From positions 3,348,001-3,412,000 of the forward strand of contig CP152408.1 in assembly GCA_038961845.1 (NCBI GenBank): a stretch of 64,000 nt of DNA. Direction: 5' to 3'. The position numbers were made by a program, and so were the translations under genes. The notes under the pieces were generated by a model. The model made no database searches, was not told the origin of the DNA, and was given only the letters and a program-made list of their open reading frames with translations. The stretch's first letter is position 1. Each line of letters opens with the position of its first letter. This DNA is from Xylophilus sp. GW821-FHT01B05 (GTDB lineage Bacteria; Pseudomonadota; Gammaproteobacteria; Burkholderiales; Burkholderiaceae_C). Of the stretch, positions 46,552-58,626 are shown piece after piece.

Positions 46552-47616
46552 ATGACTGCTTCCCCGCCCTCTTCTGCAAGCCCCATCACCACCGACGCCC
46601 TGGTCATAGGCGCCGGCCCGGCCGGCCTGTTCCAAACCTTCGAGCTGGGCCTGCTCGACATCCGCGCCCATGTGGTCGACGCCCTGCCCTATGTCGGCGG
46701 CCAGTGCATGGAGCTGTACCCCGACAAGCCGATCTACGACATCCCCTCCGTCGCCGTCTGCACCGGCCGCGAACTGGTCGCCAACCTGCAACGCCAGGCC
46801 GCCCCCTTCGCCCCCACCTTCCACCTGGAGCAGGAAGTAACCGTACTTGCCGCGCGAGACGACGGCGCCTTCGACGTCCAGACCTCCACCGGCACACGCT
46901 TTATCGCCAAGACCATCCTGCTAGCCGCAGGCGTCGGCGCCTTCACGCCACGCAAACTCAAGATCGAAGGCCTGGACGCCTTCACCGGCACCCAGCTGTT
47001 CCACCACGTACGCGATGCCGCCGCCTTCACCGGCCAGCGCGTGGTCGTCGCCGGCGGCGACGACCTGGCAGTAGAAAAAGCCCTGACCCTGTCCGACGCC
47101 GGCGCCACCGTCACCCTGGTGCACCGCCGCGCCCAACTCCAGGCCACGCCAGAGCTGGCAGCACAGTTCCAGGCCCGCTGCGACGCCGGCACCCTGCACT
47201 TCCAGGCCGGCCAACCCAACGGCATCAAGATCCAGAACGGCCGCCTTACCGCACTGGAACTGCTGGACCCAGAAGGCCAACCCCAAACCCTGCCGCTCGA
47301 TGTCCTCTGCGTACTGCTGGGCCTAAGCCCCCGCCTGGGCCCCATCGCCGACTGGGGCCTGGCGTTGGAACGCAAGCAGGTGCCGGTAAACACCGAAAGC
47401 TTCGCCACCCAGGTGCCAGGCATCTTCGCGGTCGGTGATATCAACACCTACCCGGGCAAGAAGAAGCTGATCCTGTCGGCTTTTCATGAATGCACGCTGG
47501 CGGCGTTTGGGGTGGCTAAGCGGGTGTTTCCGGAGCGGCCTGTGCTGTTGCAGTACACGACTACTAGTACGCATTTGCATGAGTTGCTTGGGGTGATGGG
47601 TACGCCGTCTGACTGA
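46552..47616 (+). CDS. ferredoxin-NADP+ reductase, thioredoxin-reductase type
   Basis: A 354-residue flavoprotein of the TrxR-like FNR group. FAD loop [10 protein letters not shown] (residues 18-27), ALPYVGGQCMELYPDKPIYDIP, NADPH loop VVVAGGDDLAVE and GIFAVGDINTYPGKKKLIL are visible. There is no CxxC redox pair, which separates it from thioredoxin reductase. The ATG at 46552 is directly behind the fdxA terminator, so expression may need read-through or a separate signal. The last 100 bp are more A/T-rich than the rest, marking the start of the accessory region. Confidence 0.93.
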   Translation: MTASPPSSASPITTDALVIGAGPAGLFQTFELGLLDIRAHVVDALPYVGGQCMELYPDKPIYDIPSVAVCTGRELVANLQRQAAPFAPTFHLEQEVTVLAARDDGAFDVQTSTGTRFIAKTILLAAGVGAFTPRKLKIEGLDAFTGTQLFHHVRDAAAFTGQRVVVAGGDDLAVEKALTLSDAGATVTLVHRRAQLQATPELAAQFQARCDAGTLHFQAGQPNGIKIQNGRLTALELLDPEGQPQTLPLDVLCVLLGLSPRLGPIADWGLALERKQVPVNTESFATQVPGIFAVGDINTYPGKKKLILSAFHECTLAAFGVAKRVFPERPVLLQYTTTSTHLHELLGVMGTPSD

Positions 47617-47860
47617 CGGTGTAGGGCGTGTAGTTACTGCGGAGCAGTAACCTCCCACTGGGCGCGCACTACCACTCCTGAGTGACTACTTCAGGCTGGG
47701 AGCCGCCAGTCACTCCCTTCAGTTCATCGGCGCGTTCAGCAAGGCGTGTGAGCACCGACCGCCTGCTAGGCGTGCATTGACCGCTGATTCACGTCCAAAA
47801 GCGAGAGTTCATCCAGAAATTGAATTTCTACACAACAAATGTGTTGTGTAGAATACGTGT
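47617..47860. other. intergenic region at the left edge of the accessory region
   Basis: No gene is seen in 47617-47825. It holds two stem-loops: GTTACTGC/GCAGTAAC (47633-47651) and GAGTGACT/AGTCACTC (47680-47687 and 47708-47715). Neither is followed by a T run. The right end carries the operator of the following gene. Confidence 0.5.
47826..47853. promoter_or_regulatory. palindromic operator of the HTH-ImmA gene
   Basis: A perfect 12-bp inverted repeat, TTCTACACAACA/TGTTGTGTAGAA around AATG. Its right arm contains a -10-like TAGAAT (47849-47854) only 7 bp before the GTG start. This is the expected arrangement for autorepression by the encoded HTH protein. Confidence 0.75.
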
Positions 47861-49156
47861 GTGCCACCTAGTTCTGTCATCTCCAATGATCGCCAAGCTC
47901 GGGATCTCGAAGCCGAAATTGAGCGAATTTCGCAAGCGTTGTCGTCTGAGCAAACACTTAAGTCCGTCATAGACGGTCTGCCGGACCTTGCTATTGAGGG
48001 CATCCGTCGGTCTCTGACAACTGAGAGGCGAGAGCTGTCGAAAAGGCTGGATGCTTTTCGCCAAGCCCAGGGGGGCAATACTGAGCTGATGAAGGAGTTG
48101 GCAGGCACTGACCTAGGTGACTTGCTGATCGTTGCACGGCTGGCTCAAAACTGGAAGCAAAAGGATTTGGCCAGGAAGCTCGGATTGCAAGAACAGGCAA
48201 TTCAGCGCTGGGAGTCAGATCGATATCGCAGCATCAACCTTGCCAACTACATGAAGGTGGCGCGAGCTCTTTCCGTGGAGCTGTCGGCTCAGTTCCATTC
48301 ATCCCAGGTGTCAAAGTGGCTTCCGTCGCCCGATTTGAATCCGGCGGAGCTGCAGAAGGTGTTGAAGCATGCTCGTGCCCATGGCTGGCTTGAAGGGCAG
48401 GATTCAGACGAAGAGGATGCAAAGAAGCGTCTTATTCGACACGTGACTGAACATGTCGGGCGATATGGAACGCCATCGCTTTTGCGAACAGGCATCAATG
48501 TCAAAGACCATTCGGAAGATTGGGTTCTGCTCTCGTGGAAGGCACAGGTCACTCGTCGCGCCGAGGGAATCATCAATGCTGATCGACTGTCATACCGCCC
48601 GTTGGAGCTCTCGTGGCTCAAGCAGTTGGCCAAGCTCAGTGCTCACCCTAATGGGCCATTGCAAGCGGAAAAGTTGCTCCGAGAGCATGGCATCGTGCTT
48701 GTCATCGAAAGAAATATCCCAGGCATGGAGGTTGATGGGGCGGCCTTCCTGGTAGAGCACATTCCTGTTATCGGCCTGACGCTTCGGCGCGACGCGGTGG
48801 ACAACTTCTGGTTCACGCTGATGCACGAAGTGGCTCACGTCATCTTGCATTACAGAACAGGCCTCGCATCGGGTTTCTTCGACGACGTCGAGCATGTTGA
48901 GGTGGATGAGTTCGAGCAGGAGGCGAACAAGTTTGCCTCCGACCTGCTGCTTCCTGAGGAGCATTGGGCTCGCTCCCCAGCACGCATTGCTAAGGTGTCC
49001 GCTCCTATTGAGAACTTTGCCAAGCAACTCGGGATTGCTCCTGCCATCGTGTATGGCCGTATACGTTTCGAGCGTGGCAACTACGCGCTTTTTTCCAACA
49101 AGATTGGACTTGGCACAGTCCGAAAACTCTTCCTAGCGGAGGCTTCTGATGCTTGA
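47861..49156 (+). CDS. HTH (XRE) and ImmA/IrrE-type metallopeptidase protein
   Basis: A 431-residue three-part protein: an N-terminal coiled coil (about 8-72), an XRE-type helix-turn-helix (about 86-140, GDLLIVARLAQNWKQKDLAR and LQEQAIQRWESDRY), a linker, and an M78 ImmA/IrrE zinc peptidase (about 265-400) with HEVAH (residues 322-326) and the third-ligand motif EFEQEANKFASDLLLP (350-365). ImmA-type peptidases cleave HTH repressors to switch on mobile or stress genes. Here repressor and peptidase are fused. The gene starts with GTG just after a palindromic operator, and its end overlaps the beta-family gene by 8 bp. Confidence 0.88.
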   Translation: MPPSSVISNDRQARDLEAEIERISQALSSEQTLKSVIDGLPDLAIEGIRRSLTTERRELSKRLDAFRQAQGGNTELMKELAGTDLGDLLIVARLAQNWKQKDLARKLGLQEQAIQRWESDRYRSINLANYMKVARALSVELSAQFHSSQVSKWLPSPDLNPAELQKVLKHARAHGWLEGQDSDEEDAKKRLIRHVTEHVGRYGTPSLLRTGINVKDHSEDWVLLSWKAQVTRRAEGIINADRLSYRPLELSWLKQLAKLSAHPNGPLQAEKLLREHGIVLVIERNIPGMEVDGAAFLVEHIPVIGLTLRRDAVDNFWFTLMHEVAHVILHYRTGLASGFFDDVEHVEVDEFEQEANKFASDLLLPEEHWARSPARIAKVSAPIENFAKQLGIAPAIVYGRIRFERGNYALFSNKIGLGTVRKLFLAEASDA

Positions 49157-50297
49157 TCGAAAGAAAGTTATCTACGTTCCTGCACTGCGTATGAAGCGCG
49201 GGGAGTTGGAGGGATTGGCTTGGCTTCAGCCTGATGTTGCCGATTGCATTGCGCCTCTGCTCATCGTTCCTCCAGCAAAAGAACGCGATTGCGGAAGTCA
49301 GGGATCATTTTTTGAGACTGCCGATGGTGTACCTGACGTGGGCGCTGTGGTTGCCAAATACTGGGTACATCGCGAGGTATTCGTAGATGTCAAAGCCTTA
49401 CTCAAGGAAAAATCAGGGCAGGAAGTCAGTAGCTGGCTTCCTGCCCTTTTTGCTCGTGCACGCAGTATGGGTGTCTTCGCGATCCCGGTCGCCACCATCG
49501 GCACGCTTGAGAAGGTGGGAGTAAAGGCCTTCAAAAGCGCGCTTCTGACAGACTCCAAATTGAAATTCGGCCTTCGCATTGAGTCCGGTGATTTGGCCGA
49601 TCAATCGCTCGACTTGCGCATCAAGGCTGTGTTGAGCGGCTTGGACCTATCGGCGTCCGCCTGCACTGTCTTCGCCGATTTCTCTGACGCTGACCTCTCC
49701 TTTCCTTCGGTCGTTGAGCCCATTATTCGGGGAGCTTTGGAACAGCTTCAAGCCCTTGGCCATTGGCAGTTGATCTGCTTCTTGGGAACGCATTACCCTG
49801 AGAAAATCCCCGCAGATCCTGGGGAGACCTTCACCCAACCTCGCAATGAGTGGCATGCCTGGAAAGCTGCCGTCAAATTTGATCCGTCGACGGCGGAGCA
49901 CATGATCTTTGGAGATTTCGGAGCGGACAACGCAAAGATCGACTTTCGCAGCGGAGGCGGAGCTCAGCCAATTGTTCACTGCCGCTACACCACGCAGGAA
50001 AGTTGGATGATCGTCCGGGGAGAAAATGAGGGAAATTGGTCTCACCGAATGAGGGGGGTATACGGGTGGATCGTTGATAGCGGAAAGTTCTCTGGGCCAG
50101 AATTCTCTGAGGCTGATCGATTGATTTATGACGTTGCGCGAAAAAATGCTCAGAGCGTTGGCGGTCCGTCTGCATGGCGGCAAGTAAATACAACCCACCA
50201 CATCACGCGAGTTGTCGCCGACATGGCGACTATTCGGAGTATTCCGATTTCCACGCTTCCAACTGCCCCTGTAGGGATACAGCAGGAGCTTATATAG
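49149..50297 (+). CDS. beta family protein
   Basis: A 382-residue protein whose start, VIYVPALRMKRGELEGLAWL followed by IAPLLIVPP, is typical of the Beta_protein family (Pfam Beta_protein), predicted to form a TIM-barrel-like domain. EVFVDVKALL, GVFAIPVATIG and FGLRIESGDL continue the pattern. The C-terminal half ends with HHITRVVADMATIRSIP. The biochemical activity of the family is not known to me. It is translationally coupled to the HTH-ImmA gene, so the two form a module. Together they resemble a regulator-effector pair of a defence or toxin system. Confidence 0.75.
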   Translation: MLDRKKVIYVPALRMKRGELEGLAWLQPDVADCIAPLLIVPPAKERDCGSQGSFFETADGVPDVGAVVAKYWVHREVFVDVKALLKEKSGQEVSSWLPALFARARSMGVFAIPVATIGTLEKVGVKAFKSALLTDSKLKFGLRIESGDLADQSLDLRIKAVLSGLDLSASACTVFADFSDADLSFPSVVEPIIRGALEQLQALGHWQLICFLGTHYPEKIPADPGETFTQPRNEWHAWKAAVKFDPSTAEHMIFGDFGADNAKIDFRSGGGAQPIVHCRYTTQESWMIVRGENEGNWSHRMRGVYGWIVDSGKFSGPEFSEADRLIYDVARKNAQSVGGPSAWRQVNTTHHITRVVADMATIRSIPISTLPTAPVGIQQELI

Positions 50298-50301
50298 AGT
50301 T

Positions 50302-51084
50302 TTAAGCTAAATGTGTCCAAGCGCTCTTCGTAAAGCGCTCGGAAATAGCCATCTTCAGTGCCTGCGCTGACGACGGCGATGGAAACAACCAGAACCACCC
50401 CCAGGTACTGCCGATCCGAGGATATTTTTGCTCCAGTGCATGCGGTATTTGCACACCGCCGCGCTGCGCCTGCCGGTCCTCTTCCCAAACATGACGGGCG
50501 TGCAAAAGCTGCTGACGCAATGCGGGAGCCAAAGCACGCGGCAACATCACCACCCGATCCTTGTTGCCCTTGGCTTCGCGCACGATAATCACATGGCGGT
50601 CAAAGTCCACATCCTTGATGCGCAGCCGCAGCCCCTCCATAAGGCGCATTCCCGTGCCGTACAGCAGTTGCGCCAAGAGACGCATGTCCGAGTTGAGAAA
50701 CTGGAACAGCGCGGCCACTTCCTCCTTGGTCAGCACATTGGGAATGCGGCGCTTTTGCGCCGGGCGGCTCACGCCATCCAGCCAAGGCAAATCGATGCTC
50801 AGCACTTCCCGATATAGAAACAACAACGCGCTGAGGGCCTGGTTGTGCGTGGATGCCGATACCCTGCGCTCGGTGGCCAGCATGGTCAAAAAAGCCTCCA
50901 CCTCTGGCGCACCCATGTCACGCGGATGCCGCATACCTCCGGCGCGGCCATGCCAACGAATGAAAAAGCGTACCCAGTACAGGTAGGCCTTCTCGGTGCT
51001 GAGGCTATAGTGCCGGTAACTAACACGCTCCCGGACTTGGTCCAACAGTCGTGTGGAGCGCAAAACAGGTGTGCCGGGTTTCAT
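50302..51084 (-). pseudogene. intI: integron integrase, C-terminally truncated
   Basis: A 260-residue remnant of an integron integrase (intact IntI is about 320-340). The N-terminal SAM-like domain ([20 protein letters not shown]), the first catalytic Arg in [12 protein letters not shown] (R147), the Lys in GNKDR and the IntI-specific [19 protein letters not shown] insert (about 217-234) are kept. After LFPS the frame leaves the family and stops, so the HxxR, second His/Trp and catalytic Tyr are missing. It cannot recombine. The truncation abuts the beta-family gene. The ATG at 51084 is the family start. Confidence 0.9.
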
Positions 51085-51097
51085 GGGATTTTTATAA

Positions 51098-51112
51098 CTG
51101 TGTTTTGCACAG
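51098..51112. promoter_or_regulatory. degenerate LexA-like box at the intI promoter
   Basis: CTGTGTTTTGCACAG is a 5-bp inverted repeat 14 bp before the intI start, in the place where many integrases carry a LexA box. The LexA consensus needs 8 bases between CTGT and ACAG; here there are 7. Confidence 0.3.
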
Positions 51113-51217
51113 CGTATCGATCGCCAATCCAGGCTGCAAGCCACTTTCAGGAGGAAGCCGTGCCCAGAATATCCCGCCTCGTCCAGCTTATTCCGCAGGT
51201 TCTGCGGGATACATTGC

Positions 51218-51224
51218 GTTCGGC
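51218..51224. other. candidate attI/cassette core site
   Basis: GTTCGGC lies 12 bp before the first cassette start codon, where the attI x attC junction is expected. It departs from GTTRRRY at one position, so the exact crossover point is uncertain. Confidence 0.4.
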
Positions 51225-51235
51225 GTCCCCAAACC

Positions 51236-51682
51236 ATGCCTCCAACCATCGTTGATTCAGGCGCATTCGCGCATTGGTGTTCGGAGCTCCTCGCCAGTCG
51301 GCGCGAGCAAGCAATGCAGAGGTTGCGTGCTCTGTTCGATCAAGTTCTTCCAGCGGAAGTCACAAGCGCTGAGATACAGATCTTCTTTCAAGACGACGGC
51401 GGCGCTCCAGACGCCTGGATGTACTTCGATGGGAAGAACAAGAGAGTCAGCAAGTCAGACCAATCAATCTATCCGGGCCGCGCGATGTCACTCGATCTTG
51501 GCTTAGATGTGCTTTCAGAACTGGAGCCTAAAAACACTCATGCTGCTGCAAACAGCATCAAAGAATGGTTGGCAGAGTGCTGGTCGTCTGTGGGCGGCCA
51601 AGAGTACTCAGTTCCCGTAACTCTCTCAATCCATGACGGTTGGGGCGATGGAAAGCACGTATCCCTGACTGCAAAGAAGTGA
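51236..51682 (+). CDS. cassette 1 protein, function unknown
   Basis: A 148-residue protein with no family I recognise. It is soluble, without signal peptide or membrane span. It is predicted alpha/beta, with an acidic [20 protein letters not shown] segment and aromatic, Gly-rich C-terminal [17 protein letters not shown]. The ATG lies 12 bp after the candidate attI core, and its stop is 2 bp before the attC site, which is typical of a cassette gene. Confidence 0.75.
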
Positions 51683-51683
51683 C

Positions 51684-51752
51684 GCCTAACCCTTCAATCG
51701 AGAGGACGTCACCCGGCAAGCCGGGTGCCGCCTCTCATCTCAAACGTTAGGC
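51684..51752 (+). other. attC site 1
   Basis: Simple site R'' GCCTAAC (51684-51690) and R' GTTAGGC (51746-51752) are exact inverse complements. Between them lie imperfectly paired arms (GAGAGGACGTCACCCGG and CCGGGTGCCGCCTCTC) around CAAG. The 69-bp length and layout are typical of integron attC. Confidence 0.92.
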
Positions 51753-51756
51753 CGCT

Positions 51757-52059
51757 ATGAGCGATCTTCATATAGCTGAAATTCCATATCCGTCCGGTGC
51801 TATCCGCTTCCGGTACTCGCGTTACCTGGCAGCCGATGGCTCAACTTGGATTCGGCACGGCCTATTCCGTGCGTACCACGAGAGTGGTTTGCTCGCCTCT
51901 GAGGGCAATTATGAGCATGGCAAGGAGCACGGAGCCTGGCGGGACTATCACCCCAACGGTCAGGTCGCTGCAGAAGGGGCTTATGCTAATGGCGTAGAGT
52001 CGGGTGCTTGGCAATATTGGTCTGCAAACGGCGCGCCTGATTCGTCGGGCGCGGCCTAA
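51757..52059 (+). CDS. cassette 2 protein with MORN-like repeats (YwqK-type)
   Basis: A 100-residue protein made of short repeats: GLFRAYHESGLLASEGNYEHG, GAWRDYHPNGQVAAEGAYANG and GAWQYWSANGAP. These match the MORN/YwqK-type repeat (x-G-x-W/F-x-x-Y-x-x-x-G). Proteins of this fold are annotated as YwqK-family antitoxins. No toxin gene accompanies it in the cassette, so the role is unknown. The stop lies within the attC R'' site. Confidence 0.8.
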   Translation: MSDLHIAEIPYPSGAIRFRYSRYLAADGSTWIRHGLFRAYHESGLLASEGNYEHGKEHGAWRDYHPNGQVAAEGAYANGVESGAWQYWSANGAPDSSGAA

Positions 52060-52110
52060 CATTTCGTTCAAGGCGGACGGCTTCGCCGCCGCTTAACTCC
52101 AGCGTTAGCC
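52054..52110 (+). other. attC site 2
   Basis: R'' GCCTAAC (52054-52060) and R' GTTAGCC (52104-52110) enclose TTCAAGGCGGACGGCTTCGC and CGCCGCTTAA, the common attC layout (57 bp). The cassette 2 stop codon TAA is inside R''. Confidence 0.9.
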
Positions 52111-52163
52111 CTCACCAAGACCCCACGCGCTTACCATTGCGCTCTCACGAACGGGAGGATTTA

Positions 52164-52880
52164 GTGGCCACTGCAGCAACATACCCGAAGATCAGCCGAA
52201 AGCTCTGGTGGCTCCTTCGAGATCGCTTCAAGAAGACCGTCCCCTCCGTCGTGACGCCCACGCTAGTGATGTCGTTGGCCCCAATGGCAGACGGATCCGC
52301 GCGTTCAAATGTAATTAGCCCGCTGCGAGAGTTGGGACTTTTGGACGAAGACAACAAGCCAACAGAATGGGCGACGCGCTGGCGACATGATGACGAATAC
52401 GCCGCCGTCTGCCACGAGATTCGACAGAAGATCTATCCATCAGAGCTGATTGAGGCTTTTCCGGATGCCGACTCTGGACAGAAGAAACAGATCAAGACGT
52501 GGTTCATGAAGGTTGGTCACGTCGGCGAGGCCGCGGCTCGCATGTACACGGACACATATCTCCTACTCAGTCAAGCCGACCCGGCAAAGCCAGAGGAGAA
52601 GACCGGTTCAGTCTCACCTGTAAGACTTGCCAAGCCCAAGCCCAAGTCCAAACCGAAGGCGGAGGCTAAGGCATCGGCAAAGTCGGCACCAGCGCCGGCA
52701 CCGCCGACACCTCCGGTAGATACGCATCAAGGCTCAGATCATCCTGCGTCAACGCCACATCGCAGAGCACCGGCAATACATATCGACGTGCAGGTACACA
52801 TCTCGCCCGACACTTCTGCCGAACAAATCGACCGAATATTTGAGAGCATGGCAAAGCATCTCGGAACGTACATTAAGTAG
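52164..52880 (+). CDS. cassette 3 protein a (DUF5343-like)
   Basis: A 238-residue protein. The N-terminal half, WWLLRDRFKKTVPSVVTPTL, ARSNVISPLRELGLLDEDNKP and YAAVCHEIRQKIYPSELIEAFPD, resembles DUF5343, which has winged-helix-like character. A KPKPKSKPKAEAK low-complexity linker (about residues 155-200) leads to an IHIDVQVHISPDTSAEQIDR C-terminal segment. The GTG at 52164 follows GGGAGG by 5 bp, preferred over a TTG at 52137. The next gene starts 5 bp after its stop, so the two were captured together. Confidence 0.75.
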   Translation: MATAATYPKISRKLWWLLRDRFKKTVPSVVTPTLVMSLAPMADGSARSNVISPLRELGLLDEDNKPTEWATRWRHDDEYAAVCHEIRQKIYPSELIEAFPDADSGQKKQIKTWFMKVGHVGEAAARMYTDTYLLLSQADPAKPEEKTGSVSPVRLAKPKPKSKPKAEAKASAKSAPAPAPPTPPVDTHQGSDHPASTPHRRAPAIHIDVQVHISPDTSAEQIDRIFESMAKHLGTYIK

Positions 52881-52884
52881 CGCC

Positions 52885-53403
52885 ATGGCAGAGCGCCCAG
52901 CTGCTGATGCCGTTGCACTGGCCGCCGGCCTACAGCGGCTAGTGAATGAAACAATCCGCCCACCGTCCGAAACTGCAGTCTCACGAGATGAGCCGGTCAT
53001 ATACATGGCGATGGTGCGCGGCACTCGGGGCTATATTGAGCGCGTAGCACATCAGGCGAATGGGACTTACGCCAACGGTTGGTATGACGCTTGCGCAGTG
53101 ATGATCAGACGGCTGCTGGAGACCCTGATCATCGAGTGCTATGAGTCACACAAGATTGAGGCTCGCATCAAGGACGCAGTGGGCAACTACCTTTTCTTGA
53201 AAGACTTAGTCGACAGAGTCCTCGCCGAGCAAACTTGGACGCTCGGTCGTACAGTCCGCTCAGTTCTGCCAAAGCTCAAAGAACTGGGCGACAAGGCGGC
53301 GCACAATCGCCGCTACAACGCGCACCGGGAAGACCTCGACAAGGTCCTAAAGGATCTGCGCGACACAGTGCAGGAACTGCTCGTCCTCTCCAAGTTGAAA
53401 TGA
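52885..53403 (+). CDS. cassette 3 protein b (HEPN/DUF4145-like)
   Basis: A 172-residue helical protein. ANGWYDACAVMIRRLLETLIIECYE followed by KLKELGDKAAHNRR resembles the DUF4145/HEPN-type core in which a helix carrying MxRRLLE pairs with a (G)DKAAHN motif. An Rx4H-type RRYNAH follows, as in HEPN nucleases, but whether it is catalytic is unknown. It is 5 bp downstream of the DUF5343-like gene, so the pair forms a two-gene cassette ended by attC site 3. Confidence 0.65.
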   Translation: MAERPAADAVALAAGLQRLVNETIRPPSETAVSRDEPVIYMAMVRGTRGYIERVAHQANGTYANGWYDACAVMIRRLLETLIIECYESHKIEARIKDAVGNYLFLKDLVDRVLAEQTWTLGRTVRSVLPKLKELGDKAAHNRRYNAHREDLDKVLKDLRDTVQELLVLSKLK

Positions 53404-53429
53404 ACAAGCCGCTGCCTACGCCGAGTGCA

Positions 53430-53489
53430 GGCTAACCATTCCTTCAAGCGGACCTGCCTTCGGCAGTCCGCTTAAGTCAAACGTTGAGC
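53430..53489 (+). other. attC site 3
   Basis: GGCTAAC (53430-53436) and GTTGAGC (53483-53489) flank TTCAAGCGGACCTGCC and its partner GGCAGTCCGCTTAAG. The 60-bp site is slightly degenerate at its outer cores but has the normal hairpin. Confidence 0.88.
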
Positions 53490-53641
53490 GTCCGCTTCGA
53501 CATCAAACCAATACCTGCTCCTGGCCGACAGCTGACCAAGGACGCCCGCGCGCCGAAAGTCATCAATCGCTGCAAAGCGGACATACACCGTAAGCGCGCG
53601 GCAAACCCATGTTGACCGCCGCTGGCGGTCATGGCTGATGA

Positions 53642-55162
53642 TCAGATGCTGGCAGGTTGCCAGCGATGTGGCAGCAGCTCATCGATGCGGCCGGCCTTGT
53701 GCGTGGGCAGCCGGGTCAGCACATCCTTGAGGTAGGCATACGGGTCATGCTCGTTCATGCGCGCCGACTGGATCAGGCTCATCACGGCAGCTGCCCGCTG
53801 GCCCGCGCGCAGGCTACCGGCAAACAACCAGTTCGAGCGCCCAAGGGCAATGGGCCGGATCTGATTCTCGATCCAATTGTTATCCGCCGGCAGCTGCGGG
53901 TCATCGACGAAGCGCGTGAGCGCAGCCCATCTTTTGAGGCTGTAGTCCAGTGCCTTGGCCGTCGCCGAGTTGCCCGCCACCTGCTGGCGCTGCAGCACCA
54001 TCCATTGATGCAAGGCATCCAGTATCGGTCGGCTGTATTGCTGGCGTACCTGCAGCCGCTCTGGTGCCGCTAGGCTCTGAGCTTGCCGTTCGATCTCATA
54101 GACCCGGGCGAACTGCGCCAGGGCCAATTCGGCGATCTGGCTCTTGCCCGCCGCGTGCAGCTCGAAGAACTTGCGCCGGGCATGCGCCAGGCAGCCGGCC
54201 TCCGTCACGCCTTGAGCAAAGCTGGCTTTGTACCCGGCGTAGTCGTCGCAGATCAGACTGCCGCGCCAGTCCCCCAGGAAGATGCGGGCATGTTCCCCGG
54301 CGCGTGACTCGCAGAAGTCATAGACCACGGCACGCGTGGCTTCAAACGCTCCTGGGGCATACGCCCACAGGTAGGCCCGGTGCGTTTTACCGTTGCCCGG
54401 CTTGAGCATGGCCACCGGGGTCTCATCACCGTGCAACACCCGGTGGCCGAGCACCTCGGCCTTCAGGGCATCGACCAGCGGTTGCAGCCGCGCACCGCAG
54501 GTGCCCACCCATTGCGCCAAGGTGGATCTTGGAATCGCCAGACCGGCGCGACCAAAGATGTTCTCCTGCCGGTACAAGGGCTGGTGATCGGCGTACTTGG
54601 CCACCAGCACCTGGGCCAGCAGGCCGGCTGTCGGGATGCCTTTGTCGATGACGTGGGCGCCCACCGGCGCCTGGGTGATCGTCTGGCACTGGGCGCAGGC
54701 CCACTTGCCACGGATGTGGCGCTCCACCGTGAAGACGCCGGGCACGTAGTCCAGCTTCTCGGCCACGTCCTGGCCGATGCGCTTGAGCTGACAGCCGCAA
54801 CCGAGCGTGCCGCAGGTGGTGGATTCGGGTTCATGGAGGATCTCGCGCCTGGGCAGGTTCGCCGGCAGCGGCGTGCGCTTGGGCTGCTGTTTGTCGGTGG
54901 CAGGTTGAGCCGCTCGTAACTGCTCGATCTCGTGAGAGACGGCGGCCAGATCGCTGTCGAGCTCTTCTTCCAGCAGGCTCCTCTGATCGGCGCTGTGCCG
55001 CTCGGATTGGGCGGCGAACTTCAACTGCTTGAGCAGCGCGCACTCATAGGTGAGCTTCTCGTTGAGCGCGCGCTGGTGACGCAGTTCGGCCAGCAGGCGC
55101 TGGGTCACTTCGCGCAGTTGCTCTGCGTCCAGTTCGCTCAGGGCCTGCTCGTCGATCACCAT
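53642..55162 (-). CDS. tnpC: IS66 family transposase (TnpC)
   Basis: A 506-residue transposase. A coiled-coil N-terminus, a zinc-binding CGTLGCGCQLK and WACAQCQT segment, and the DDE triad: D in HGDETPV, D in CDDYAGYK and E in NNWIENQIRP. The C-terminal segment LIQSARMNEHDPYAYLKDVL is the usual IS66 C-domain. The length fits an intact IS66 TnpC. It is the last gene in the IS operon. Confidence 0.96.
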   Translation of the reverse strand: MVIDEQALSELDAEQLREVTQRLLAELRHQRALNEKLTYECALLKQLKFAAQSERHSADQRSLLEEELDSDLAAVSHEIEQLRAAQPATDKQQPKRTPLPANLPRREILHEPESTTCGTLGCGCQLKRIGQDVAEKLDYVPGVFTVERHIRGKWACAQCQTITQAPVGAHVIDKGIPTAGLLAQVLVAKYADHQPLYRQENIFGRAGLAIPRSTLAQWVGTCGARLQPLVDALKAEVLGHRVLHGDETPVAMLKPGNGKTHRAYLWAYAPGAFEATRAVVYDFCESRAGEHARIFLGDWRGSLICDDYAGYKASFAQGVTEAGCLAHARRKFFELHAAGKSQIAELALAQFARVYEIERQAQSLAAPERLQVRQQYSRPILDALHQWMVLQRQQVAGNSATAKALDYSLKRWAALTRFVDDPQLPADNNWIENQIRPIALGRSNWLFAGSLRAGQRAAAVMSLIQSARMNEHDPYAYLKDVLTRLPTHKAGRIDELLPHRWQPASI

Positions 55163-56466: not shown

Positions 56467-58626
56467 GTGGCATTTATAAGAAAAGTGGGCTTAGCCCAGG
56501 TGCAGCAAGGGCTATCAGCTCTTGTTTTTATAGCAACGGGCGTTGCTGCCCAAACCACACCCGACAGCGCGCCCACGCTCAAGGCGGTGACGATCGACGA
56601 CCGCCGCGCGGCGCCGCAGGCCGACATCGCCGGCTTTGGCGATCTGCCGCTGCAAGAGGTGCCGGTGTCTGCCACGGTGGTGGACCGCACCCAGTTGCAG
56701 GCCAGCGGCGCGCGGCGGCTGGCGGACCTGACGCAGTTCGACGCCTCCGTCACCGACGCCTACAACTCGCCCGGCTATTGGGACTTCCTGACGGTGCGCG
56801 GCTTTGTACTGGACAACCGCTTCAACTACCGGCGCGAAGGCCTGCCGATCAGCGCAGAGACCACGATCCCGCTCGACAACAAAGAGCGCATCGAGATCCT
56901 CAAGGGCACCAGCGGCATCCAGGCCGGCACCAGCGCGCCGGGCGGGCTGGTCAACTACGTGGTCAAGCGCCCGACCGAGCACGACCTGCGCGAGGTGCGT
57001 GTGGAGACGACGTCGCGCGGCAGCCTGCTGGGCGCGGTGGACCTGGGTGGGCGCTTTGGCGTAGACCGCGAGTTTGGCTATCGCCTGAACCTTGCGCAGG
57101 AGCGCCTGCGGCCGCTGGCACACAACCTGGACGGCGAACGCAGCCTGCTGTCGCTGGCCACCGACTGGCGCATCAGCCGCGATTCGGTGCTGGAGGCAGA
57201 GGTGGAATGGAGCCGCAAATCCCAGCCCAGCCAGGCCGGCTTCAGCCTGCTGGGCAACACCTTGCCCGCGCCGGCGGACCCGCGCATCAACCTCAACAAC
57301 CAGCCCTGGTCGCAGCCCTCGGTGTTCGAGGCACTGACCGGCACGCTGCGCTTCCAGCAAGCCCTGAATGACCGCTGGCGCTGGTCTGCGCAACTGGGCC
57401 AGCAACGGCTCAAGAGCGATGACCGGCTGGCCTACCCCTTTGGCTGCGGCGCCGAGGGCAACTACGACCGCTACTGCTCTGACGGTACCTACGACCTCTA
57501 TGACTTCCGCAGCGACAACGAGCGCCGCCTGCAGCAAGCCGCCAACCTCACGCTGCAAGGCCATGCGCAGACTGGCGGCGTAGCGCACGACCTGTCCTTT
57601 GGCATCTTGGCCAGTCGCGTGCGCAACCGCTTCCAGGACCAGGCCTACAACTACGTGGGCAGCGGCAACGTCGCAGGCACGCTGTTCACGCCGGCAGACC
57701 CAACGCTGACCGACACCAACACCAACCGCGACGAACATTCGCTGGAGTTCTCGGCCCAAGACGCGATCCGCTGGAACCCGCGCTTCACCACCTGGGCTGG
57801 CCTGCGCTACACGCGCCTGTCGCGCGAGAGCGTGCGCACCGACGGCACGCGCCCAACCGACTACGACGCCGGCCTGACCACGCCGTGGCTGGCCGCCAGC
57901 TACGCGCTGGCGCCGGGCCGCATCGTCTACGCCAGCTACGGCCAAGGTGTGGAGTCGCAGATCGTGCCCAACAAGCCATCGCAATACACCAATGCCGGCG
58001 TTGCCCTGCCCGCCGTCAAATCGCGCCAGTGGGAAATCGGCATGAAGGGCGGCGACGAGGTGTTGCGCTGGCAGTTGGCCTGGTTCCACATCGTGCGGCC
58101 GGTGACCAACCTGGATGCCTGCAACCGCCTGGGTATCACGCCTTGCGAAGGCGCCTATGACGGCGATGCGCGCCACCAGGGCCTGGAGGCCAGCGCGCAG
58201 TGGCAGCAGGGCCCATGGCGCCTGGCCGGTGGCGTGATGCTGCTCGACGCCAAGCGCCAGGGCAGCACGGCCGAGCCCACCATCAACGGCCAGCGCCCCA
58301 CCAATGTGCCCAATCACACGCTGCGCGCGCAAGCGGGCTACCGCGTTGCGGCACTGCCGGGCCTGGAGTTGGTCGGCGCCCTGTCGCACGAAGGCCGCCG
58401 CGCCGTGCTGCCCGATGGCTCTATAGAGCTGCCCAGTTGGGCGCGCCTGGACGCGGGCCTGCGCTACGAGCAGAAAGTGGGCGGCAAGACCCTGCGCTGG
58501 CAGGCCAACATAGACAACCTGCTGGACCGCCGTTACTGGAAAGAGTCCCCCTACCAGTACGGCCACGTCTACCTGTACCCGGGTGCACCGCGCACGTTGC
58601 GCCTGGGGCTGAGCGTTGCGCTTTGA
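56467..58626 (+). CDS. TonB-dependent receptor, TPP-riboswitch controlled
   Basis: A 719-residue outer-membrane receptor without a signalling (STN) domain. The plug has GDLPLQEVPVSATVVDRTQL and KGTSGIQAGTSAPGGLVNYVVKR, and the barrel ends in LRLGLSVAL. Sequence features place it with siderophore-type receptors, but the riboswitch shows it is expressed at low TPP, so the ligand is likely thiamin or a precursor. The GTG at 56467 follows AAGGA. The signal peptide (KVGLAQVQQGLSALVFIATG) is encoded largely by repeat I copy H and has a weak, interrupted hydrophobic core. Confidence 0.88.
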   Translation: MAFIRKVGLAQVQQGLSALVFIATGVAAQTTPDSAPTLKAVTIDDRRAAPQADIAGFGDLPLQEVPVSATVVDRTQLQASGARRLADLTQFDASVTDAYNSPGYWDFLTVRGFVLDNRFNYRREGLPISAETTIPLDNKERIEILKGTSGIQAGTSAPGGLVNYVVKRPTEHDLREVRVETTSRGSLLGAVDLGGRFGVDREFGYRLNLAQERLRPLAHNLDGERSLLSLATDWRISRDSVLEAEVEWSRKSQPSQAGFSLLGNTLPAPADPRINLNNQPWSQPSVFEALTGTLRFQQALNDRWRWSAQLGQQRLKSDDRLAYPFGCGAEGNYDRYCSDGTYDLYDFRSDNERRLQQAANLTLQGHAQTGGVAHDLSFGILASRVRNRFQDQAYNYVGSGNVAGTLFTPADPTLTDTNTNRDEHSLEFSAQDAIRWNPRFTTWAGLRYTRLSRESVRTDGTRPTDYDAGLTTPWLAASYALAPGRIVYASYGQGVESQIVPNKPSQYTNAGVALPAVKSRQWEIGMKGGDEVLRWQLAWFHIVRPVTNLDACNRLGITPCEGAYDGDARHQGLEASAQWQQGPWRLAGGVMLLDAKRQGSTAEPTINGQRPTNVPNHTLRAQAGYRVAALPGLELVGALSHEGRRAVLPDGSIELPSWARLDAGLRYEQKVGGKTLRWQANIDNLLDRRYWKESPYQYGHVYLYPGAPRTLRLGLSVAL
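56472..56545 (-). repeat. dispersed repeat I, copy H, in the receptor signal-peptide codons
   Basis: Read on the minus strand: GTTGCTATAAAAACAAGAGC, TGATAGCCCTTGCTG, CACCTGGGCTAAGCCCACTT. It matches repeat I in the reverse orientation and covers about codons 3-27 of the TonB receptor gene. Confidence 0.75.

Follow-up and report, generated by a model that had tools for sequence, protein, structure and literature searches.

A two-gene Xre-peptidase and beta-protein module in Xylophilus, putatively a PD-lambda-2-type lineage without component A

The gene pair and its operator

The window, that is the whole 64,000-nucleotide stretch of Xylophilus sp. GW821-FHT01B05 DNA analysed here, carries two genes, referred to as B and C, whose ends overlap and which are preceded by an inverted repeat. 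The features of the module are as follows.

47826..47853, no strand: operator, a 28-bp inverted repeat TTCTACACAACA-AATG-TGTTGTGTAGAA with perfect 12-bp arms and a 4-bp spacer
47830-47849, no strand: conserved core of the operator, ACACAACA-N4-TGTTGTGT, present in 23/23 clade loci
47827..47854, + strand: putative sigma-70-like promoter, TCTACA (47827-47832), 16 nt, TAGAAT (47849-47854), with the operator inside; 9/12 consensus matches
47861..49156, + strand: gene B, fusion of an Xre HTH and an M78 (ImmA/IrrE) peptidase, 431 aa, GTG start (ORF call, Pfam)
48134..48286, + strand: HTH domain of B, residues 92-142, recognition helix around EQAIQRWE (Pfam HTH_3, 6.6e-11)
48695..48973, + strand: M78 peptidase domain of B, residues 279-371 (Pfam Peptidase_M78, 2e-10)
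48824-48838, + strand: HEVAH of B, residues 322-326 (sequence, alignment)
49149..50297, + strand: gene C, beta protein PF14350, 382 aa, ATG start (ORF call, Pfam)
49149..49156, + strand: 8-bp overlap of the B stop and the C start, ATGCTTGA (sequence, ORFs)

The sequence-only reading had described open reading frames of 431 and 382 residues with an 8-bp overlap, the first joining an XRE HTH to an M78 peptidase with HEVAH and the second belonging to the beta family, and all of this was found in place, the Pfam match of C (PF14350, 2.4e-52) covering residues 9-356. The peptidase motif is intact: in the alignment of B proteins (n=23), no variation is seen at H322, E323, H326, E352, E354, A355 or N356, the last being D in some sequences of the wider set, and Q112, Q115 and R116 of the HTH are invariant in the same 23 sequences. 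Among 11 diverse beta proteins, R143 of C is nearly invariant and E19, D80, D177, D256 and H351 are fully so, a pattern that hints at an active site. Profile searches of C against solved structures gave no significant match, with best E values of 0.77 (glutamate racemase) and 0.23. The junction between B and C in relatives is an overlap, an adjacency or a short gap. A terminator-like hairpin within C (49415-49447) was dropped as a candidate, as it is absent from the congener's copy.

The perfect 12-bp palindrome that had been noticed before the GTG is real and corresponds to the two arms of the inverted repeat, and the TAGAAT overlapping it was confirmed. The core shows 0-2 mismatches of 16 in every locus of the clade to which the module belongs (the window and 22 relatives, described below), and is perfect in locus L047 (the same as L005 and L067). 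The arms hold on average 1.75 and 1.67 bits per column, versus 0.11 in 48 upstream columns and 0.20 downstream, and this conservation among relatives places the palindrome beyond chance. In a search of the whole genome allowing up to 2 mismatches, the core was single-copy.

The promoter match is weak when taken alone, since 3 promoter-like sites were found against 1.9 by chance. Across the clade, TTGACA lies flush with the 5' side of the operator in 9/23 loci, and with a two-base offset in 2 others, and TAnnnT starts at the last base of the operator in 10/23. Because the flush TTGACA and the TAnnnT hold together only in L020 (1/23 loci), the reading that places the operator in a promoter-spacer position is good in outline and unproven locus by locus. 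Between the end of the operator and the start codon there are 6-13 nt in each of 22 tabulated loci; the distance is 11 nt in 9 of them, and in 7 of these 9 the TAnnnT is six bases from the start codon. No Shine-Dalgarno motif was flagged in 22 loci; L009 has AGGGG one base from its ATG. The simplest reading would be a leaderless mRNA for B, with a predicted start at the GTG. Given that the same operator stands at this short distance from the start codon throughout the 23 clade loci, B is probably the autorepressor of its own operon.

Relatives of the pair and the A-less clade

B matches the PADLOC model PD-Lambda-2_B (PDLC03982) over residues 96-426 with E=1e-69, and C matches PD-Lambda-2_C (PDLC03984) with E=5.1e-37. 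PD-lambda-2, an abortive-infection system according to Vassallo 2022 (PMC9519451), came out of a functional selection in E. coli; its component A is HigB-like, B is an Xre-peptidase and C has kinship with a P4 antitoxin (PMC9519451). In view of these matches the family is not new and the partner is not without known activity; the earlier idea of an unprecedented combination with a beta protein of no known activity has to be given up, as the two genes correspond to B and C of PD-lambda-2 (PMC9519451). The idea of an operator-controlled pair that recurs and is related to a defence system is upheld by the PADLOC matches and by the pairing. A profile search of genome contigs with the C alignment found 24 loci, and in 22 of them C is immediately preceded by a full B, the other two being L025, a fragment at a contig edge, and L023, where the 1.4 kb upstream of C contain no B.

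Members of the clade are labelled Burkholderiales, Alphaproteobacteria and, in one case, a Desulfuromonadaceae MAG. The PF14350 family is accessory, being present in 15/299 genomes of the family, 6/349 of the order (5 over the cut-off), 8/369 of the class and 13/398 of the phylum, counts that include the genome of the window at each rank. Relatives of C were found in 20 plasmid records (best identity 43.7%), several of them annotated beside an XRE regulator and others beside an sce7726 protein. In viral contigs B has 19 relatives, with a top identity of 35%, and in phage records C has a single distant one (23.6%). As close relatives are absent from the viral contigs and phage records searched, the link to prophages that had been raised earlier is unsupported for this clade.

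With models built here, including a HigB model from 4 sequences and a cII model from 10, no HigB, DUF6932 or cII/sce7726 gene was found in the 22 clade loci and the window, the upstream stretch of L009 being only about 560 bp long. The HigB model detected no HigB-like gene upstream of B in L048 either, where 2.8 kb are available, and in the window the 244 bp between the preceding gene and B (47617-47860) are too short for the HigB genes of 94-105 aa seen elsewhere. As a positive example, the HigB of L119 matches PF09907 at 2.5e-25 and PD-Lambda-2_A at 9.8e-43. The RelE-fold toxin and HTH antitoxin of a HigBA type II toxin-antitoxin system were thus not recovered as a pair, no HigB-like gene having been found, nor were the separate protease and repressor genes that are a feature of CapP/CapH, B being one chain. 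No gop appeared among the best 25 families of 139 and of 146 in the PADLOC neighbour scans.

In the wider set, full-length B is accompanied by HigB (17 rows) or by DUF6932 with a convergent cII (4/4 loci). A maximum likelihood tree of 48 B proteins places the 23 A-less rows on one side of a branch supported at 100/100, with the DUF6932 rows as their neighbours (both together 100/98); the HigB rows group weakly (77/49), and the program warned that long branches meet at deep forks. Because the A-less rows were collected through their kinship with the window, how many there are carries no information on frequency; in the genome census, 4 loci were A-less (window included), 12 had HigB and 3 had DUF6932, the others holding beta without a full-length B. 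As judged from sequence, the module belongs to the PD-lambda-2 kind as a separate lineage in which A was not found, and it is no new kind of system.

Other layouts were seen around beta proteins. Loci L107, L108, L109 and L026 hold DUF6932, Xre-M78, beta and a convergent cII/sce7726 gene, DUF6932 replacing HigB in a PD-lambda-2-like layout. Loci L118, L036, L038 and L035 have an HTH-less M78 protein (283-294 aa) between a protein of 216-229 aa and beta, again with a convergent cII; the 216-229 aa protein is weakly GNAT-like by Pfam in L118 and has no match in L036. The sce7726-like proteins beside beta in L111:6020-6721 and L119:6031-6651 match the PADLOC cII model ('cll') at 1.8e-42 and 2.4e-24, which links such genes to gop-beta-cII.

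The operator could also be compared between lineages. Four DUF6932 operons share the operator of the window before their first gene, with 0, 2, 3 and 3 mismatches of 16, and their recognition helix is of the QxIQRYE type, the same as in the window clade. The HigB operons have a different, SRVSE-like helix and carry GTTCCCA-N3-TGGGAAC with at most 2 mismatches of 14 in 9/10 operons (L122 has 6), a comparison that covers the 10/17 HigB rows with enough upstream sequence and is partly circular, since the motif was picked after viewing some loci, its distance to the gene varies and L028, L029 and L031 are related. In the same 10 operons, ACACAACA has at least 5 mismatches in every one. The operator appears to change with the recognition helix across lineages, and this co-change, together with the conservation of the operator, supports B as the repressor of its own operon.

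Neighbourhood, mobility and selection

In the window, 8.85 kb separate a ferredoxin-reductase gene (ending at 47616) from a TonB receptor gene (starting at 56467). In two of six congeners the gap is nearly empty, the tblastn matches to the two flanking genes lying just 382 and 431 bp from each other, and in three of the six the TonB gene lies outside the stretch compared. In the contig of Xylophilus sp. ASV27 (G004), the gap measures 6.7 kb and holds the pair in inverted orientation beside GajA (1.1e-108) and GajB (9.3e-49) of Gabija. The occurrence of the module is patchy and relocated.

The genes flanking the gap have a dS of 0.24-0.33 between the window and G004. Compared with the congener's copy, B has a dN of 0.07 and a dS of 1.86 (dN/dS about 0.04), and C a dN of 0.30 and a dS of 1.98, values of dS that are near saturation. 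Since the dS of the module far exceeds that of the flanks, the copies of the window and G004 were acquired separately, or one of them was replaced; the DNA similarity of the module between the two begins at 47827, at the operator start. Relative to the congener's copy, B appears to be under purifying selection and C under a looser one. B is also more identical than C in all 190 valid pairs, drawn from 21/23 clade rows (L009 and L019 left out) with the L008 pairs discarded. C may be the part that meets the phage or the target, and B the constrained regulator.

Downstream of C lie the following features, which are outside the module.

50302..51249, - strand: integron integrase with the C-terminal third missing (TIGR02249 positions 1-222 of 315)
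51684..52110, + strand: two attC-like sites, 51684-51752 and 52054-52110, flanking a MORN-repeat cassette, with GCCTAAC/GTTAGGC-like borders (by eye)

The broken integron in A/T-richer DNA that had been pointed out before is borne out by the truncated integrase and by a GC content of 0.54-0.61 over 47001-54000 versus mostly 0.62-0.70 around it. Behind the truncated gene, positions 51236-52110 are occupied by integron cassettes for DUF6389 and MORN-repeat proteins, bounded by attC-like sites; taken by itself, the attC border motif shows no enrichment in the window. Beyond the cassettes are genes for a DUF5343 and a DUF4145 protein together with an IS66-like element, and the DUF5343 protein (52137-52880), whose gene adjoins that of DUF4145, matches the candidate defence model PDC-M34A (1.3e-10). 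Two more integron-integrase-like genes over the TIGR02249 cut-off are present in the same genome, at C1:2092104-2092997 and C1:1583314-1584258.

Recurrence beside integrons did not hold up: at a tblastn threshold of 1e-5, neither the integrase of the window nor its DUF6389, MORN, DUF5343 and DUF4145 proteins were found in the 24 other loci, and IS66-like transposase pieces were seen in L003 and L011. The integron is a neighbour and no cause, because the pair exists in 22 other loci without the integrase and cassettes, and one of these occupies the same gap in the chromosome. Insertion of the module into intI, with the remainder of the gene left on the far side, was considered and rejected, as inspection by eye of all six reading frames across the 244-bp gap showed no C-terminus of the integrase.

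Recurrence beside defence genes was found in part, in L047, L014, L016 and L013, with no match to a defence model among the neighbours tried in L022 and L024. GajA and GajB adjoin the pair in L047. A PtuA/PDC-M01A gene lies about 0.2 kb downstream of B-C in two related Sphingomonadaceae genomes (L014:9329-11768 and L016:9329-11770), followed by PDC-M01B in L014, and the candidate defence gene PDC-S21 (3e-119) is directly upstream of the pair in L013:5507-6559. Neighbours checked singly gave a partial HEC-05 match in L015 and an AAA-domain match in L008. The PADLOC scans, run at E 1e-10, covered 195/217 neighbour ORFs of at least 120 aa that had been predicted with a home-made rule, the first half also by Pfam; they took the best 25 families of 139 and of 146 without a control set, and enrichment is not claimed.

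Interpretation and comparison with known systems

We consider it reasonably likely that the pair is an autoregulated two-gene anti-phage module, a minimal PD-lambda-2 lineage with peptidase-triggered derepression and C-dependent defence. Dimers of B would bind ACACAACA-N4-TGTTGTGT inside their own promoter and keep the operon low, B being translated, probably, from a leaderless mRNA, and C being coupled to it through the overlapping or closely spaced gene ends. Infection would switch on the M78 domain, most likely by ssDNA, a trigger proposed because PprI and CapP are reported to be ssDNA-activated (PMC10904395). The active peptidase would then cut the repressor part of B, or B would let go of the DNA, so that B and C would be made in quantity and a C-dependent growth arrest or interference would result.

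Either protein may do the harm, as the part that is toxic when overexpressed in PD-lambda-2 is B, with A rescuing the cells (PMC9519451). C is required against lambda-vir in that system (PMC9519451), and the beta protein may or may not be the effector, given the toxicity of B. With no A found in the clade, B would have to be harmless here or restrained in another way. Alternatively, the pair could be a toxin-antitoxin system in which the peptidase of B causes growth arrest, C neutralises it as P4 beta does Gop, and a phage attack on C frees B. The toxicity of PD-lambda-2 B alone would fit, as would the failure to find A, which neutralises B elsewhere, in the clade. The gop-beta-cII locus of satellite P4, which includes a beta protein, is reported to protect against lambda and P1 (Rousset 2022, PMC9122126), gop and beta being a likely toxin-antitoxin pair and gop toxic without beta (PMC9122126). 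However, C of PD-lambda-2 is described as dispensable for neutralising the toxin (PMC9519451), and C evolves faster than B, which is odd for a partner-locked inhibitor and expected if C faces the phage. We regard this alternative as unlikely, if worth keeping in mind.

Still less probable, in our estimation, is a stress or DNA-damage regulator without a role in immunity, in which B would be a fused ImmR/ImmA or PprI/DdrO-like switch controlling C. The protease-repressor pairs of Deinococcus and CapP/CapH are reported to work as such genotoxic-stress switches (PMC10904395), and the operator, found once in the genome, would limit the regulon to the B-C operon; the patchy, relocated distribution and the kinship with a tested defence system argue against it. 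That the pair is a decaying PD-lambda-2 remnant which lost its toxin gene is hardly credible: the failure to find a HigB-like gene in the clade would agree with it, but the clade stands on a 100/100 branch that spans Burkholderiales, Alphaproteobacteria and a Desulfuromonadaceae MAG, the dN/dS of B is low, and the operator and peptidase motif are kept.

Returning to the anti-phage reading, a broader version, which we put forward tentatively and with slightly less than even confidence, is that the HTH-M78 and beta core is a general immune chassis with an exchangeable first-gene slot, complete by itself, HigB being an add-on. If so, the slot would be occupied by HigB, by DUF6932 (with a convergent cII), or by a GNAT-like protein before an HTH-less M78, and by nothing in the window clade; a self-repressing protease and a beta protein would make up a whole immune system, and the HigB 'toxin' of PD-lambda-2 would be an accessory. 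What is new here is the operator evidence, the exchangeable first gene and a separate, well-supported A-less clade. A puzzle of PD-lambda-2, as reported, is that the presumed antitoxin B is toxic and the presumed toxin A the rescuer (PMC9519451), and a natural two-gene version without A offers the cleanest route to ask about the roles of B and C. The operator and the transcript start are concrete, readily testable predictions. Our results also suggest that annotation rules demanding three components could miss the A-less branch.

Among known systems, the RmrA and spr1629-type proteins share the fusion of an HTH to M78 (RmrA 2.8e-18; spr1629 model 60.6 bits), although B is far under the 335-bit cut-off of the latter and its partner is a beta protein. 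CapP/CapH and PprI/DdrO share the M78 peptidase and the HTH repressor, the capP model matching B at 4.2e-12, but these are two proteins there and one chain here, and a beta gene takes the place of the known targets. The gop-beta-cII system of P4 has the beta-protein family in common with the module, whereas the PADLOC beta model matches C at 0.0022 only and the clade is without a detected cII. PD-lambda-2 differs in its HigB-like A, for which none of the 23 clade rows gave a match, and the operator and recognition helix of the window clade are unlike those of the HigB operons examined; the two share an Xre-M78 fusion followed, in the same order, by a beta-like protein.
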